DNA of 64,000 nucleotides, from NCBI RefSeq assembly GCF_005233845.1, contig NZ_SZQL01000003.1:248001-312000 (forward strand), written 5' to 3'. Of the stretch, positions 110 to 6,933 are shown in pieces. Each line of letters opens with the position of its first letter. Positions within the stretch are counted from its first letter, which is position 1. Source of the DNA: Ilyomonas limi. Lineage in GTDB: Bacteria; Bacteroidota; Bacteroidia; Chitinophagales; Chitinophagaceae. The translations under genes were made by a program, and so were the position numbers. The notes under the pieces were generated by a model that was given only the letters and a program-made list of their open reading frames with translations, searched no databases and had not been told where the DNA came from.

Positions 110-745
110 CTACGAGCAAAGTAACAATACGGCTATCATGAAAGCAGCACCGACGCCAAACGAAGCCAGATAAACCCACCCGGTACGCGAGCTTGCCAGC
201 ATTGTACAAATGCTTTGCAACGCCGGGAAAGTGTTAATGGCAGTTGCAGTATCCTTTTTATCAGTGATATTGGTAATCCATGCTTTTGAAATACCGCCTG
301 TTGCAGCCGCATATACACCATACCTAAAAAATAACCCGAAAAAGAAGTACATATTAGTATTTATGAAAAAGCCTGCATATACACAAACAAACAAAAAAAG
401 CCCAGTAATAAAATAGTTCTTAATCCCACTTTATCGGCTATAATGCCGGCGGGAAAAGCGAACAGTGCATATATGAAATTGTAAAAAATATAAACACCCC
501 TAATTATTGTATTCTTATCCAGACTGTTTTATTTTAAGCAATAAAAAAAGCAAATACTGCAGCTAGCCCCCGAATAACAGCAATATAAAAAAGGGTTTGT
601 ATTGTCTCCGAAAAAAATACAAATACGCAATGCCAATGAAGTTCCGATAACAGCGCCGACAGTATCCATGAACGATGAAAGCCAATAGCTGTATTCATTA
701 ATGGGATTAATTTTTTACGCGGCAATGAAATTTTGCCTCCAGCAC
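110..745 (-). pseudogene. Decayed MFS transporter (multiple frameshifts and deletions)
   Basis: Reading the minus strand, pieces of one major facilitator protein appear in order but in different frames. First comes a TM4-6-like part with GFHRS, then MDTVGAVIGTSLAL after a one-base shift near 669, then FYIAVIRGLAAVFAFF (family usually IPGLLAV) ending in a stop near 535. The next block has KQSG, then DKNTIIRGVYIFYNFIYALF and FPAGIIADKVGL (about 415-510). After another shift near 380 come VYAGFFINTN and YGVYAAATGGISKAW to the end near 110. The N-terminal helices and the central cytoplasmic loop (roughly 55 residues) are missing. A TACTTTTG sequence (767-774, minus) matches a Bacteroidota -7 element and may be the old promoter, but no -33 TTG accompanies it. 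This is a clear remnant with no intact product. The family match is from remembered motif patterns, not from a search. Confidence 0.8.
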
Positions 746-851
746 TTATCGTTTGTTTTATTTACACAAAAGTATCAGAAGCTTTTCCTACCTTCTATTG
801 ATGTTAAATGCTTTAACCTCCAACAACTTTCTTATCTTCACTTCCAAGCCT

Positions 852-1715
852 ATGCTGCACCGCTCCACCATACAATTGCTGCGTCTGCCGTTTTCATTTT
901 TTCTCATGCCGGTGTACTGGTTTGCACTGAGCATGGTGCCGGAGGTAAATCTGTTTAAAGCAATACTTATTTTTATTTTACTGCACTTGTTTTTATATCC
1001 CTCCAGCAATGGCTACAATAGTTATATGGATCGTGATGAGAGCAGCATTGGTGGCATTGAACATCCAATGCAACCAACAAAACAATTGTTCTATACCACT
1101 GTTGTATTAGATATTGCAGCAGCATTGTTGTCATTTATTATCAGCGTTCCGTTTGCAATTGCTTTTATTATTTATATCATTTGTTCGCGATTGTATAGCT
1201 ACCGAAAAATAAGACTGAAGCGCTTTGCTGTAGGGGGTTATCTTACGGTCATTATCAACCAGGGTGCACTTACTTTTTGGATGGTGTACAACGGCGCTAA
1301 TACCAATACAACCACACCTTTTCCGTGGATTGCCTGCCTGGCAGCAGCATTTTTAATTGGCGGTTTTTATCCCATCACACAGGTATATCAGCACGAAGCT
1401 GATGCCAAAGATGGCGTGCAAACCATCAGTATGTTGCTGGGTATCAGGGGTACTTTTGTTTTTTGCGCAACTATGTATGTAATTGCTTTTGGCTTATTGT
1501 TTGTCCATTTTCAGTACACACTGCAGTTGGTACGTTTTGCTTTGCTGCAAATCTTTTTCATACCTGTATTAATTTATTTTTTTTATTGGGTAACGCAAGT
1601 ATGGAAGCATAAGGCGGCTGCCGATTTTAAACATACGATGCAAATGAATTGGCTCGCTGCAGGCTGTACCAATCTGGCCTTTATCACCTTATTTATATTA
1701 AACTATATTGGCTAA
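852..1715 (+). CDS. UbiA-family prenyltransferase
   Basis: Integral membrane prenyltransferase of the UbiA superfamily, about 287 residues with 8-9 hydrophobic segments. The first Asp-rich site reads NGYNSYMDRDESS (N53 to D62) and the second HEADAKDGVQTIS; both are where the family binds Mg-diphosphate of an isoprenyl donor. An upstream in-frame start at 753 would add 33 residues that do not look like the family, so the ATG at 852 (MLHRSTIQLL) is preferred. It is the first gene of a four-gene operon and overlaps the next by 8 bp. The spelling differs from menA/ubiA of respiratory quinone synthesis, and the polyketide context suggests prenylation of an aromatic polyketide product; that is inference. 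The acceptor and the prenyl chain length cannot be read from the sequence. Confidence 0.8.
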   Translation: MLHRSTIQLLRLPFSFFLMPVYWFALSMVPEVNLFKAILIFILLHLFLYPSSNGYNSYMDRDESSIGGIEHPMQPTKQLFYTTVVLDIAAALLSFIISVPFAIAFIIYIICSRLYSYRKIRLKRFAVGGYLTVIINQGALTFWMVYNGANTNTTTPFPWIACLAAAFLIGGFYPITQVYQHEADAKDGVQTISMLLGIRGTFVFCATMYVIAFGLLFVHFQYTLQLVRFALLQIFFIPVLIYFFYWVTQVWKHKAAADFKHTMQMNWLAAGCTNLAFITLFILNYIG

Positions 1716-2799
1716 TATTATTTCCATAGCAACCACAGTACCCGAATACTGCCACCGGCAAAAAGATATCCTGCAGTTTATGCAACAGGCTTACAACCTC
1801 AATGCAACAGACAGGCGCAAGCTGGCTTTTATGTATCACTATAGCGGCATCGAAAACCGTTATTCGGTGCTGAAAGATTTTAGCCAGCCGCCACAACAAT
1901 GGCAGTTTATTAATATAGAAAGTAATGAATACACTCCATTGGATAAACGTATGGAGTTGTATAAGCAACATGCGTTGCCTTTATCTTCAAAAGCAGCACA
2001 GCGCTGTTTAAAAAACATAAAAGAAGCGATAACCATTACACATTTAATTACCGTAAGCTGCACCGGTATGAGTGCACCGGGGCTTGATTTGGAACTCGTA
2101 GAAGCCTTGCAATTATCGCCTAATGTATTTCGCACCTCCGTTAATTTTATGGGTTGTTATGCGGGTGTACACGCCCTCAAGCTGGGTAAAATGATATGTG
2201 ATACCGATGCAAAAGCCTATGTATTAATTGTTGCTACAGAGTTATGTACATTGCATTTTCAACAGGAATATACGCCAGACAATGCCGCCAGCAGTTTGCT
2301 TTTCGCCGATGGCAGCGCAGCGCTGCTAATGAGTAATGATGAAAGTATAAAACCTGTTGCTACTGTCACCAACTTTCATTCAGCTATTGCTTTTAAGGGT
2401 ATTAAAGATATGGCATGGGAAATAAGCAGTAAAGGTTTTTTGATGACGCTAAGCGGCTATGTTCCACAACTGATAGAGGAAGATATTACGGCATTGGTGG
2501 AGGAAGCTTTGCAGCAAAGTCGCCTTACTAAAAAAGATATTGCTCATTGGTGCATACACCCCGGCGGCAGAAAAATTATTGATACTATTCAAAAGCAATT
2601 GGGCTTGAATGAGGCAAATACGCAACCGGCGCGCGAAGTGCTTCGGCAGTATGGCAACATGTCCTCGGCAACTATCTTTTTTGTGCTGGATAAAATTTGC
2701 CGGCAGGCAAAACAACAATCCGGAAAGTCTTCCCACGCTTTGGGCGTTGCTTTTGGTCCGGGACTGACTATGGAAACATTTACTGCTGTGATTGCATAA
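1708..2799 (+). CDS. Type III polyketide synthase (chalcone/stilbene synthase family)
   Basis: Homodimeric ketosynthase that condenses a CoA-linked starter with malonyl-CoA units into pyrones or resorcinols. The full catalytic triad is visible: Cys150 in NFMGCYAGVHAL, His284 in CIHPGGRKII and Asn317 in YGNMSSATIFFVL. The glycine-rich C-terminus GVAFGPGLTMET is also present. Length 363 residues is normal for bacterial members. The start is taken as TTG at 1708 because the family begins with a strand like ANIISIATTVPEY and no ATG precedes it; the codon overlaps the end of the UbiA gene, suggesting translational coupling. With the following methyltransferase and FAD enzyme this resembles the srsABC logic (alkylresorcinol synthase, methylase, hydroxylase) known from Streptomyces. 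The starter unit is unknown. Confidence 0.93.
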   Translation: MANIISIATTVPEYCHRQKDILQFMQQAYNLNATDRRKLAFMYHYSGIENRYSVLKDFSQPPQQWQFINIESNEYTPLDKRMELYKQHALPLSSKAAQRCLKNIKEAITITHLITVSCTGMSAPGLDLELVEALQLSPNVFRTSVNFMGCYAGVHALKLGKMICDTDAKAYVLIVATELCTLHFQQEYTPDNAASSLLFADGSAALLMSNDESIKPVATVTNFHSAIAFKGIKDMAWEISSKGFLMTLSGYVPQLIEEDITALVEEALQQSRLTKKDIAHWCIHPGGRKIIDTIQKQLGLNEANTQPAREVLRQYGNMSSATIFFVLDKICRQAKQQSGKSSHALGVAFGPGLTMETFTAVIA

Positions 2800-3494
2800 T
2801 GAATTTAAAACACCGCTCATATCAAAAAGAATTGCTGGATAGCGATGCTATTCCATTTGCCGATATTGAACAAAACATGCGCGAACTGGATGTGATTAAT
2901 GCTTTACTCGGCGGCCATCGCATTACAGTTAAGGGCTTTAATCTGCTGCGCAACGGGCAGCAGCAATTGCATGTATGCGAGATAGGTTGTGGTGGCGGCG
3001 ATAATCTCCAGGCTATTTATAAATGGTGTAAAAAATTAAACATACAGGTTGCTTTTACCGGCATTGACATAAAAGAAGAATGCATTGCTTATGCAAAAAA
3101 GAACAAGACTTTACCACTTTGTACGGAGTGGATTTGCAGCGATTATCGCCATGTAACTTTTGATGCCAAACCAGACATTATTTTCTCCAGTTTATTCTGT
3201 CATCATTTTACTAATGAAGAACTGGTGCAGCAATTACAATGGATGCAACATCAATCTGCAATTGGTTTTTTTATAAATGATTTGCAACGGCATCCGTTAG
3301 CGTACTATTCTATCAAATGGCTTACACAATTATTTTCGAAATCCTATTTAGTAAAGAACGATGCACCACTGAGCGTAGCACGTGGCTTTATTAAAAAAGA
3401 ATGGAAAAAAGTGTTTGTGCAAGCTCATGTTCCATCCTACCAAATTCAATGGCAATGGGCATTCCGCTATTTGATTACTTACCGGCATGAATGA
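2799..3494 (+). CDS. SAM-dependent methyltransferase of the PKS operon
   Basis: Class I methyltransferase, 231 residues from the ATG at 2799, which shares its A with the TAA of the polyketide synthase gene (TAATG). The SAM-binding motif I is LHVCEIGCGGGDNL around residues 63-76, followed by an acidic strand-2 motif FTGIDIKEEC. An N-terminal helix region (KHRSYQKELLDSD) resembles bacterial methyltransferases found next to type III PKS genes. It probably O- or C-methylates the polyketide aromatic product; this is inferred from operon position. A longer reading from 2697 would only translate the end of the preceding gene in another frame. Confidence 0.85.
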   Translation: MNLKHRSYQKELLDSDAIPFADIEQNMRELDVINALLGGHRITVKGFNLLRNGQQQLHVCEIGCGGGDNLQAIYKWCKKLNIQVAFTGIDIKEECIAYAKKNKTLPLCTEWICSDYRHVTFDAKPDIIFSSLFCHHFTNEELVQQLQWMQHQSAIGFFINDLQRHPLAYYSIKWLTQLFSKSYLVKNDAPLSVARGFIKKEWKKVFVQAHVPSYQIQWQWAFRYLITYRHE

Positions 3495-4626
3495 TACAAC
3501 CTTATACGACGTAGTCATTATCGGTGGTGGTCTTGCCGGCTTATCGCTTGCCATTCAGTGCGCCGGTGCGGGCTATGCAACCATTTTGTTTGAGAAAGAG
3601 GAATATCCTTTTCATAAAGTATGCGGCGAGTACATCAGCAACGAAAGTGTGCCTTTTTTACAACGTTTGGGCGTGCCGTTGCAGCAGTATCATTTGCCCC
3701 AAATCAATACACTGCATTTAACCGATGTAATAGGCAATCTGTATCCATTCCCATTAGATTTGGGAGGCTTTGGCATAAGCCGTTTCACACTGGATAACCT
3801 GCTGTACCAAACCGCTTTGAAGAAAGGGGCAGTAGTAAAAACCGGCACAAAAGTGCAGGATGTACAATTCGCTAATGACCGCTTTACTGCTCTTACATCA
3901 GCAGGCAATTTTACTGCGCGTATTGCGTGCGGCGCTTATGGCAAGCGCAGCAATCTGGATGTAAAATGGAAACGCGCTTTTACGCTGCAAAAAAGTAACC
4001 AGCTCAATAACTATATTGGTATTAAATATCATATTCAACATCCGCACCCAAATAGTGTAATTGCATTGCACAACTTTAAAAACGGTTATTGCGGCATATC
4101 AAAAATTGAAGAAGATAAATGCTGCCTTTGCTATTTAACCACGGCTGCCAATCTTAAAAAACACAACAGCAGCATTGCACAAATGGAAGGAGAATTGCTG
4201 TCGCAAAATCCGCAACTAAAAGCCATTTTTTCAGGAGCTGCTTTTTTATACCAGCAGCCATTGGCTATTTCGCAAATTTCTTTTGAACCAAAAACGCAGG
4301 TAGAAAATGGAATCCTCATGCTCGGCGATACTGCCGGACTGATTGCACCACTTTGCGGCAACGGTATGAGTATGGCAATGCACGCATCTTTACTGGCATT
4401 CCTCAATATTGATTTATTCCTGCAAAAAAAGGTCAATCGTCCGCAAATGGAGATGCAATATGCCAAAGAATGGAAAGCACGTTTTTCCAAAAGATTGTTA
4501 GCGGGTAGGCTTATTCAGCAGGTATTTGGGGGTAATACTACTACGGCGCTGTTTTTAAAAACAATGGATGCTTTGCCAAGGCTGGCAAACGCAATAATCA
4601 AATTAACGCATGGGAGGACTTTTTGA
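3487..4626 (+). CDS. FAD-dependent oxidoreductase (geranylgeranyl reductase/monooxygenase-like)
   Basis: Flavoprotein of 379 residues. The N-terminal Rossmann dinucleotide fold is YDVVIIGGGLAGLSLAIQ, followed by an acidic residue in LFEKEEYPFHKVCGEY. The FAD ribityl-binding GD motif is GILMLGDTAGLIAPLCGNGM near residues 276-295. This arrangement is typical of the PHBH/geranylgeranyl-reductase fold. It overlaps the methyltransferase gene by 8 bp and closes the operon. By analogy with SrsC it could hydroxylate a resorcinol to a hydroquinone/quinone; alternatively it could reduce a prenyl chain, since the UbiA gene opens the operon. Both roles are inferences. No terminator hairpin with a T tract is obvious after it. 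Confidence 0.85.
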   Translation: MNDTTLYDVVIIGGGLAGLSLAIQCAGAGYATILFEKEEYPFHKVCGEYISNESVPFLQRLGVPLQQYHLPQINTLHLTDVIGNLYPFPLDLGGFGISRFTLDNLLYQTALKKGAVVKTGTKVQDVQFANDRFTALTSAGNFTARIACGAYGKRSNLDVKWKRAFTLQKSNQLNNYIGIKYHIQHPHPNSVIALHNFKNGYCGISKIEEDKCCLCYLTTAANLKKHNSSIAQMEGELLSQNPQLKAIFSGAAFLYQQPLAISQISFEPKTQVENGILMLGDTAGLIAPLCGNGMSMAMHASLLAFLNIDLFLQKKVNRPQMEMQYAKEWKARFSKRLLAGRLIQQVFGGNTTTALFLKTMDALPRLANAIIKLTHGRTF

Positions 4627-4836
4627 ATAACAGACCAGAGGCATTTTCTACTACTTTTCCTCCCCAGCCTTAAACTTTAAACATTTTCCCTATAATACTT
4701 TTTTGTATAGGAATGCCGTTTGTACAAATAAAAATCTTTACATAATTTTTTGTGAAGCCATCTTTAAATTCTCTGGCGAAACAGCAATTTTGTAATGGTA
4801 TTTTGTACCATATATCTTTTACATCCTTTTTAGCAC

Positions 4837-6933
4837 ATGCGGGTTTATAATCAATCGAGGAACAGGATTATTCAAATAATATTTGTAGCTGTTTTTCTTA
4901 TCATTACGCTTCAATTGCTGCATTTGCAGCTTTTTTCATCCGAATACCGGCTGCAGGCAGAGAACAACGCCATTTATCGCAAAGTAGTCTATCCCGATCG
5001 CGGTATTATTTACGACCGCAAGCGGCGGGCAATACTCGAAAACACGGTGATGTACGATTTGGTAGTAACGCCTTCCGAAATAAAGGGAACTGATACTGCA
5101 ACGCTGTGTGACATTCTTGGGATTGATACTGCTGAATTTAAAAAAAGGATTTTGACCTGCATCTATAAGAACTCGCGCTACAAACCCAGCGTGTTCGAGC
5201 CACTGCTGTCCAACGAAAAATATGCACGGCTAAACGAAGACATGTATAAGTTTAATGGCTTTGTATTGCAGGATAGGCCAGTACGCAGCTATCCTTACCA
5301 TGCAGCAGCGCAGGTGCTGGGGTATATTGGTGAAATAGACAGCAACTTTTTGCGCAGGCATGCAGGCGAAGGTTATGAAATGGGCGACTATGCGGGACGC
5401 GCTGGTCTGGAACTGACTTACGAAAAAATCTTGATGGGACAGCGTGGCGTAAAACGTTTTATGCGCGATAACCACGCCCGCCTTGTGGGCTCTTACGAAA
5501 ATGGCATTTTTGACACGGCTGCCATTGCCGGACGCAACCTGTACACCAGCATGGATATTGAAGTACAGCGACTGGCAGAAAGGTTATTAACTAATAAAAT
5601 CGGCAGCGTAGTAGCACTCAATCCAAAGACAGGCAGCATCATTGCAATGGCTTCGGGCCCCACTTACGACCCCAACGAGCTGACCGGTGCACAGCGGCGA
5701 AAAAACTTCAGCCGCATGTTCCTCGATACAGCAAAGCCTTTGTACAACCGTGCCATCAAAGGGCAATATCCACCGGGCTCCACCTTCAAACCACTGGGTG
5801 GTTTAATAGCGCTTGACGAAGGTATTATTACGCCTGCTTACGGTTATCCCTGTCCCGGCGCTTACTATGGTTGCAGCCATGCTGTAAGATGTACCCACGC
5901 CGGCGGCGGGCATGCTGCCAATCTGCGCATAGCATTGGCACACTCCTGTAACTCTTATTTTGTACAAGTATATCGCATGGCAGTAGATAACCCGGTATAC
6001 GGCAGCCCGCAGAAAGGCTATGCCAAGTGGAAGGAATATATGAACAGCTTTGGCTATGGCAGGCGCCTCGGCGTTGACCTGCCAAGTGAAGACGGCGGCT
6101 ATATACCCGATACTAACCGGTACACCAGAGATTATGGAAACGACCGTTGGGGCAGTTGCTTTAATGAAACATTGGGTATTGGTCAGGATAGAATGTTGGC
6201 AACGCCATTGCAAATGGCCAACCTGATGGCTATTATTGCTAATGGTGGCTATTATTACACGCCGCATTTTGTGGATAGTGTAGAGAATGAAACGATTGCC
6301 GATACAGCTTTCTTTAATAAATACCGCCTCAGGCACACTACTACGCACATCAGTCAGGAGTCGTATGCTGCCATTCAGGGCGGCATGCACGATGTAACGC
6401 TGATGGGTACGGCAACCTATATTAAAGTACCGGGTATCAACTATGCTGCAAAAACCGGTACCGCACAAAACCCGCATGGTAAAGACCACTCCATTTTTGT
6501 GGCGTATGCGCCTGTTGAAAATCCACAAATTGCAATAGCGGTAGTAGTAGAAAATGCCGGCTATGGTGCTACGTGGGCAGGTCCTATTGCTTCGCTGATG
6601 ATGGAAAAATACCTGAATGACACACTGGCTGCCGGCAGGCAAAGAGAAGTGGACCGCGTAGCTAATGCTAACCTGCTACCCGATGCCATCAGGCGCTGGT
6701 ATCAGGTAAAAGATTCGCTGCGCGCAGCCAAGGCAGCTAAGTTGCAAACAGATACCATTCCATCCATTAAACTGGACAATGGCCTGGAAAACCGCAAGAT
6801 AACTTTTGACCCCGAGGCTGAGCCCAACCGTAAAGACAGTGGCGATGCACCGCCTCCGGCTGTCCAAAAGACTTCTCCGGCTGCCATACCTAATAATGAT
6901 AACAATAAAAGAAAGCCCAATAACAGACAATAA
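4837..6933 (+). CDS. mrdA: Penicillin-binding protein 2 (elongasome transpeptidase)
   Basis: Class B PBP that cross-links peptidoglycan during side-wall growth. There is a short cytoplasmic stretch, one membrane anchor (about residues 10-28), a dimerisation domain with PDRGIIYDRKRRAILEN, and then the transpeptidase domain. Catalytic motifs are complete: Ser315-x-x-Lys318 in PPGSTFKPLGG, Ser370-Cys-Asn372 in AHSCNSYF, and Lys539-Thr-Gly in AAKTGTAQNPHG. The C-terminal 80 residues are polar and rich in Pro, Lys and Asn, probably disordered. It lies 210 bp after the polyketide operon and overlaps rodA by TAATG. The often-linked mreB, mreC and mreD genes are not next to it. Confidence 0.95.
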   Translation: MRVYNQSRNRIIQIIFVAVFLIITLQLLHLQLFSSEYRLQAENNAIYRKVVYPDRGIIYDRKRRAILENTVMYDLVVTPSEIKGTDTATLCDILGIDTAEFKKRILTCIYKNSRYKPSVFEPLLSNEKYARLNEDMYKFNGFVLQDRPVRSYPYHAAAQVLGYIGEIDSNFLRRHAGEGYEMGDYAGRAGLELTYEKILMGQRGVKRFMRDNHARLVGSYENGIFDTAAIAGRNLYTSMDIEVQRLAERLLTNKIGSVVALNPKTGSIIAMASGPTYDPNELTGAQRRKNFSRMFLDTAKPLYNRAIKGQYPPGSTFKPLGGLIALDEGIITPAYGYPCPGAYYGCSHAVRCTHAGGGHAANLRIALAHSCNSYFVQVYRMAVDNPVYGSPQKGYAKWKEYMNSFGYGRRLGVDLPSEDGGYIPDTNRYTRDYGNDRWGSCFNETLGIGQDRMLATPLQMANLMAIIANGGYYYTPHFVDSVENETIADTAFFNKYRLRHTTTHISQESYAAIQGGMHDVTLMGTATYIKVPGINYAAKTGTAQNPHGKDHSIFVAYAPVENPQIAIAVVVENAGYGATWAGPIASLMMEKYLNDTLAAGRQREVDRVANANLLPDAIRRWYQVKDSLRAAKAAKLQTDTIPSIKLDNGLENRKITFDPEAEPNRKDSGDAPPPAVQKTSPAAIPNNDNNKRKPNNRQ

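Follow-up and report, generated by a model that had tools for sequence, protein, structure and literature searches.

A UbiA–type III polyketide synthase operon in Ilyomonas limi, a candidate pathway for a membrane phenolic lipid in Bacteroidota

The four-gene operon

A 64,000-nt stretch of the Ilyomonas limi genome (Bacteroidota, Chitinophagaceae; assembly GCF_005233845.1, contig NZ_SZQL01000003.1, positions 248,001 to 312,000 of the forward strand), here called the window, carries four overlapping genes for a UbiA-family membrane protein, a type III polyketide synthase (PKS), a methyltransferase and a flavin adenine dinucleotide (FAD)-dependent oxidoreductase. Functional linkage of the four genes is well supported. 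Their features are as follows.

852..1715, + strand: UbiA-family membrane prenyltransferase, first gene (Pfam UbiA, 57.7 bits; cut-off 34.2)
1017..1037, + strand: UbiA first metal motif, N56-S-Y-M-D60-R-D62 (N56, S57, D60 and D62 invariant in 27/27 close relatives and 4/4 inspected relatives from family f24)
1389..1403, + strand: UbiA second metal motif, Q180-H-E-A-D184 (Q180 and D184 invariant, 27/27 and 4/4)
1708..2799, + strand: type III PKS, probable alkylresorcinol synthase (Pfam; best PDB sequence relatives 4b0n, Steely1 and PKS18)
2155..2157, + strand: PKS catalytic Cys150 (conserved 62/62)
2416..2418, + strand: PKS Trp237, aligned with Gly256 of chalcone synthase (CHS) and thereby presumably with ArsB Trp281, the aldol/resorcinol determinant (23/23 in the UbiA clade)
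2557..2559, + strand: PKS catalytic His284 (conserved 62/62)
2656..2658, + strand: PKS catalytic Asn317 (conserved 62/62)
2799..3494, + strand: class I S-adenosylmethionine-dependent methyltransferase (Methyltransf_25, 43 bits; cut-off 27)
3487..4626, + strand: FAD-dependent oxidoreductase of the superfamily of geranylgeranyl reductases (GGRs), QhpG and halogenases (Pfam FAD families; NCBIfam TIGR02032, 94.9 bits, below cut-off)

Successive genes overlap by 8, 1 and 8 bp. The PKS starts with a TTG at 1708, upstream of the UbiA end at 1715; the PKS stop codon and the methyltransferase ATG share one base (2799), and the FAD gene starts at 3487, ahead of the methyltransferase end at 3494. These overlaps, together with a complete Cys-His-Asn triad in the PKS, had been read from the DNA alone in an earlier annotation (the original prediction), and both are borne out, the former by the open reading frames and Pfam models and the latter by residue conservation. 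For UbiA, starts at 801 and 753 are also open; the start at 852 agrees with relatives, such as the UbiA reading frame of Chitinophaga japonensis (locus L032) beginning MLHPSTIQLLRFPFS. In C. japonensis, the four genes occur in identical order with a PKS 65% identical to that of the window, and the 8-bp UbiA–PKS overlap recurs there and in two further loci (L033 and L034); the arrangement is therefore not due to chance.

A scan of positions 400-4900 gave 14 sigma-70-like sites against 13.5 expected, which is chance level, and 8 terminator-like sites against 4.7 expected; no terminator is claimed. What we take to be the Bacteroidota-type promoter pattern has zero matches in the window, and no promoter is claimed either. 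On the - strand, window positions 110-700 may hold the broken remnant of a transporter of the major facilitator superfamily, spread over several frames (Pfam MFS_1, E 0.015, below cut-off).

The polyketide synthase

The PKS belongs to the type III family by both Pfam models, Chal_sti_synt_N (PF00195, 98.9 bits) and Chal_sti_synt_C (PF02797, 93.8 bits; cut-off 27 each), and its triad C150, H284 and N317 is conserved in all 62 PKS proteins compared (the window and 61 loci). Its best NCBIfam model is DpgA, a malonyl-CoA-only enzyme, with 167 bits against a cut-off of 425. In a profile alignment to PKS18, A123 falls on the Ala of an APG motif and C180 on a Cys for which entry 1tee has Phe, positions which we take to be A148 and that of the C205F mutant. 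These tunnel residues are matched by A123 and C180 in 23/23 PKSs of the clade found with UbiA (see below). W237 and M246 are likewise present in 23/23 and in the PKS of a planctomycete plasmid locus (L115), which has the matching A123, C180 and W237.

The acyl tunnel of PKS18 and its C205 have been described, and whether alkylresorcinol or alkylpyrone is made depends on Trp281 in ArsB as against Gly284 in ArsC (PMC6274091). Mapped through Gly256 and Phe265 of CHS, rather than by an alignment of ArsB itself, this Trp would correspond to W237. The window operon resembles the ars operon of Azotobacter vinelandii at the putative cyclization-determining position and differs from it in having no fatty acid synthase (FAS) gene, such genes being included in ars (PMC3098273). 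The residues lend support to a putative acyl-type alkylresorcinol synthase and, being present in most other groups examined, do not mark the UbiA clade.

The UbiA protein

Membership of the UbiA family rests on PF01040, whose cut-off is well exceeded. Against NCBIfam, the protein lies below the cut-off of every model matched, the best being the general prenyltransferase model PRK12884.1 (37.3 bits; cut-off 269), and no PDB sequence matches at E 0.1. A structural model from a shallow two-sequence alignment, with a predicted local distance difference test (pLDDT) score of 59.5, matches solved UbiA prenyltransferase homologs first and lends weak support to a UbiA fold.

Canonical UbiA metal motifs are N-D-x-x-D-x-x-x-D and D-x-x-x-D. 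The window protein reads N-S-Y-M-D-R-D-E-S and Q-x-x-x-D. At the ninth position of the first motif, the usual Asp is replaced by Ser, Gly or another residue, and in the second motif Gln replaces the usual first Asp, as aligned by eye with the D-x-x-x-D of paralogs from the same genome. Residues N56, D60, D62, Y115, R121, K123, Q180 and D184 are invariant in 27/27 close relatives (26 from the genome sample described below, plus C. japonensis). This invariance points to a protein under constraint and does not tell the reaction catalysed. Since CtaB of the same genome likewise departs from the second metal motif, the altered residues do not exclude activity. The protein represents an unusual UbiA subfamily. 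No relative was found on plasmids at E 1e-5, plasmids being the only replicons searched outside Bacteroidota.

The genome has six UbiA-family matches, one below the Pfam cut-off. Besides that of the window, four exceed it: a UbiA_other/MqnP-like protein, CtaB, a protein resembling geranylgeranylglyceryl phosphate synthase and EboC. The UbiA_other and CtaB paralogs exceed their model cut-offs; the synthase-like one is below those of its models. Plausibly, menaquinone and heme roles are covered by these other proteins, and because such paralogs exist, either role is unlikely for the window UbiA. A firm placement in menaquinone or heme synthesis, which the original prediction had named as the outcome contrary to its own, was rejected: the cut-offs of the MqnP (MqnP_SCO4491, 16.3 bits; cut-off 420), UbiA and CtaB models are not reached.

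The methyltransferase and the FAD enzyme

The methyltransferase matches Methyltransf_25, Methyltransf_31, Methyltransf_11 and other Pfam families and is of class I; no model of isoprenylcysteine carboxyl methyltransferases (ICMT) matches at E 0.1. The FAD enzyme matches the Pfam families DAO (37.4 bits; cut-off 27.9) and FAD_binding_3 (31 bits; cut-off 22). Its best NCBIfam models are GGR- and QhpG-like, with no cut-off reached among the 25 shown; for TIGR02032, the GGR model, 158.8 bits would be needed. Halogenases are its top PDB matches, and the 16 matches include 3oz2, a digeranylgeranylglycerophospholipid reductase. The GGR motif is Y-x-W-x-F-P; Y-C-G-I-S-K stands at that place. Class A hydroxylases carry a D-G element, at the position of which the enzyme has A-Y-G or similar. 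Ring oxidation is thus suggested by the company of the gene, not by motifs. An AlphaFold model of this protein (mean pLDDT 44.6) was not used.

The FAD family also occurs outside the PKS pathway: Hymenobacter and Bernardetia plasmids carry a close relative with no PKS nearby. On the Hymenobacter swuensis plasmid pHsw1 (L109:4117-9131), the relative (45% identity) lies beside genes annotated as isonitrile synthase and TauD-like dioxygenase, and no PKS is among the features shown.

Distribution across Bacteroidota

The genes were sought in 395 Bacteroidota genomes, an even draw from the phylum, at thresholds of E 1e-20 (PKS), E 1e-25 (FAD enzyme) and E 1e-15 (methyltransferase); ‘strong UbiA’ denotes the 26 UbiA matches of at least 148 bits. 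The PKS query finds 176/395 genomes. The FAD enzyme occurs in 82 and the methyltransferase in 85, always with the PKS (82/82 and 85/85). All 26 strong-UbiA genomes have the PKS and the FAD enzyme, and 24/26 have the methyltransferase. UbiA adjoins the PKS in 20/26 and is located elsewhere in 6/26. All four genes lie together in 16/26, and in C. japonensis. In the other genomes, the FAD gene is elsewhere in three (G001, G011 and G016) and UbiA in four (G072, G158, G166 and G387), the set being more scattered in G371, G146 and G190. The relocated UbiA of G146 adjoins a different methyltransferase (L116:7083-7889), whose best model, below cut-off, is phthiotriol dimycocerosate methyltransferase; the usual methyltransferase is present elsewhere in that genome.

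For the co-occurrence of UbiA and PKS, the hypergeometric value of 2.5e-10 ignores relatedness and is a guide only. Better evidence comes from the window's own family, where the sampled genomes split evenly: 7/14 carry the full set and, at these thresholds, the other 7 lack every one of the four genes. A mirror-tree comparison of UbiA and PKS gives r 0.82 over 27 genomes (0/2000 shuffles as high), falling to 0.57 when a linked genome is paired with an unlinked one; it is not used as evidence, because a common species history yields the same correlation.

A further 34 genomes, every one a member of family f24 with a PKS, give weak UbiA matches (47-77 bits); by hand count they make up 34/45 of the f24 genomes with a PKS. 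Four of the 34 proteins were inspected (L128-L131), and all four have the N-S-x-x-D and Q-x-x-x-D signature together with Y115, R121 and K123. In L129, genes for a thioredoxin-like protein, a class III aminotransferase and an aldehyde dehydrogenase come after UbiA. No paper describing the four-gene set in Bacteroidota was found in the openly licensed PMC literature.

The PKS tree and the wider operon family

Sixty loci were drawn for spread from 59/176 PKS genomes, and the PKS tree comprises 67 proteins, 62 from the window and loci and 5 from plasmids. The 23 PKSs of strong-UbiA genomes (22/26 plus C. japonensis; G076, G111, G194 and G273 were left out) form one clade with support 99/97, and the UbiA label changes 2 times on the tree against 19.2 in shuffles. 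The single outsider in this Bacteroidota clade is a gammaproteobacterial copy from Psychrobacter urativorans plasmid 5 (L113), which suggests horizontal transfer. In the neighbourhood comparison, 4/62 stretches (L047, L062, L066 and L075) lost their PKS by the gene-picking rule; they were kept in the triad, tree and residue sets.

Plasmid records with a PKS match number 171 and those with a FAD match 13; seven plasmids were examined in all, including two that show no PKS. PKS, methyltransferase and FAD genes stand together on L111 and L112 (Alphaproteobacteria), L113 (Psychrobacter), L114 (Deinococcus radiodurans) and L115 (planctomycete), with no UbiA beside the trio in these five loci of three phyla, the search covering plasmid loci and not chromosomes. 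The methyltransferase and FAD proteins of L111, L112, L113 and L115 are detectably related to those of the window; in L114 the methyltransferase is, and the FAD protein not convincingly so.

Six loci of f5 type (L083, L084, L086, L090, L091 and L092, from families f3, f5 and f10, presumably flavobacteria and their kin) have the order FAD–methyltransferase–PKS without UbiA. After the PKS come genes that, named by eye, encode a FabZ-like dehydratase, a ketosynthase, an acyl carrier protein (ACP) and a protein resembling phosphopantetheinyl transferases (PPTases). Their PKSs have F, I and P at positions 237, 123 and 180 (I and P in 6/6). The f5 type differs in its PKS active site and appears to be equipped with a FAS-like set of its own. 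In five further loci, the PKS is paired with a short membrane protein that, by eye, resembles ICMT methyltransferases.

Comparison with known systems

PKS, methyltransferase and FAD oxidoreductase make up a known kind of operon, that of alkylresorcinol clusters of hierridin and planctomycete type, and the added UbiA is the variant. Like the window, the hidABC and planctomycete operons combine the three enzymes (PMC10896814); they differ in gene order, and their three genes do not include a UbiA. Planctomycete enzymes yielded pentadecyl- and heptadecylresorcinols, and addition of the G. maris methyltransferase and FAD genes led to the gain of one methyl, probably carbon-linked, the FAD role staying unknown in that account (PMC10896814). 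Membership of this type was found via L115, an uncharacterized proxy standing in for the HidABC and G. maris sequences themselves: in a BLAST comparison within a small set, its methyltransferase matches that of the window at E 1e-13 (24% identity) and its FAD enzyme at E 2e-15 (23% identity).

The original prediction had drawn a parallel with srsABC of Streptomyces griseus, of which the functional likeness stands: there too, a PKS, a methyltransferase and a monooxygenase lead to a methylated, hydroxylated alkylresorcinol (PMC6669644). The parallel does not extend to the methyltransferase, SrsB being of ICMT type (PMC6669644) whereas the window enzyme is of class I (Methyltransf_25). Membership was rejected on this ground; nor is there a UbiA among the three srs genes, and the hidABC/planctomycete trio is the closer precedent. 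SrsB methylates alkylresorcylic acid with decarboxylation, according to a reference title in PMC5916927.

On the fragment cloned from the loseolamycin locus of Micromonospora endolithica, a UbiA gene lies three genes ahead of losA; unlike in the window, a methyltransferase and an acyl-CoA dehydrogenase lie between the two, and no FAD oxidoreductase appears by name (PMC7587189, in its available text). One cyanobacterial hid-like cluster, that of Raphidiopsis, also includes a prenyltransferase (PMC8086630). The available text of the two papers (PMC7587189 and PMC8086630) reports no demonstrated prenylation in these clusters.

A prenylated alkylresorcinol lipid and its alternatives

It is tempting to propose that the operon is dedicated to making a membrane phenolic lipid, likely a methylated, oxidized and prenylated alkylresorcinol or quinone, a reading to which we give a probability of about 0.5. 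The PKS would take a long fatty acyl starter and three malonyl-CoA; because the operon has no FAS gene, the acyl chain would come from primary metabolism. The resulting tetraketide would be folded by the PKS into a 5-alkylresorcinol. The methyltransferase may then methylate the ring at C or O, the FAD enzyme may oxidize it toward a hydroquinone or quinone, and the membrane UbiA may join a polyprenyl group to it; the product, a prenylated alkylresorcinol or quinone, would carry two lipid tails. Plant cannabinoids follow the same overall logic, with a type III PKS and a membrane aromatic prenyltransferase. As the original prediction held, UbiA belongs with the PKS in a dedicated pathway, since strong UbiA tracks one PKS clade even where the genes lie apart; that it prenylates the polyketide is a proposal. 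Somewhat less probable, and offered tentatively, is the broader proposal of an undescribed, widespread class of Bacteroidota membrane lipids, prenylated alkylresorcinols or quinones, made by a new UbiA subfamily with an N-S-x-x-D/Q-x-x-x-D active site, of which f24 would have an unlinked version.

Several observations weigh against the prenylated alkylresorcinol reading. Two acidic positions of the canonical UbiA metal motifs differ. Most PKS groups examined have A123, C180 and W237 whether or not UbiA is present, and the ICMT-linked group has C180 and W237 too; being so common, these residues neither mark the UbiA clade nor prove a resorcinol. The trio occurs without strong UbiA, as seen in 56/82 FAD-bearing genomes, and two UbiA genomes (G190 and G371) have no methyltransferase. 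The f24 UbiA genes are not beside the PKS and, because f24 PKSs sit in another clade, association with one PKS clade holds for strong UbiA matches only. Finally, the co-occurrence p-values overstate independence because the genomes are related.

These points leave room for other products. The PKS may use a short starter or malonyl-CoA only, so that the prenyl group set by UbiA would be the sole lipid tail of a quinone-like meroterpenoid, f5-type relatives building their tail with their own FAS-like genes. The DpgA match points this way, and the presence of FabZ-, ketosynthase-, ACP- and PPTase-like genes in 6/6 f5-type loci without UbiA is consistent with alternative tail sources. DpgA scores far under its cut-off, however, and A123 and C180, found in 23/23, correspond to residues of the PKS18 acyl tunnel, whereas the f5 type has I and P in 6/6, which makes such a small core unlikely. 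Slightly less likely still is a hierridin-like product, a methylated and oxidized alkylresorcinol without a prenyl group, in which UbiA would have lost prenyl transfer and would, for example, bind or handle the lipid. The altered motifs would fit a UbiA of this kind, as would the trio in the five plasmid loci without adjoining UbiA and in the 56 Bacteroidota genomes without a strong one. The loseolamycins, from a fragment with UbiA near losA, are described as alkylresorcinols without an isoprenoid, in an experiment where only losA was activated (PMC7587189). Against loss of function, the remaining UbiA motif residues are invariant in 27/27 and 4/4, and solved UbiA prenyltransferase homologs come first among the matches of the low-confidence model.

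The FAD enzyme, for its part, may saturate the prenyl chain in the manner of GGRs instead of oxidizing the ring. TIGR02032 as the best NCBIfam model and 3oz2 among the PDB matches speak for it; but the TIGR02032 cut-off is unreached, halogenases are the top PDB matches, the GGR motif is absent and 56 PKS genomes have the FAD gene but no strong UbiA, so that this role is quite improbable.

If the prenylated alkylresorcinol reading is true, a substrate class would be at hand for an uncharacterized UbiA subfamily that accompanies type III PKS genes in several families of Bacteroidota, and the predicted lipid could show up in standard lipid extracts. The operon would also provide a bacterial enzyme pair for prenylated resorcinols, in which the role of the altered metal motif would be directly testable.

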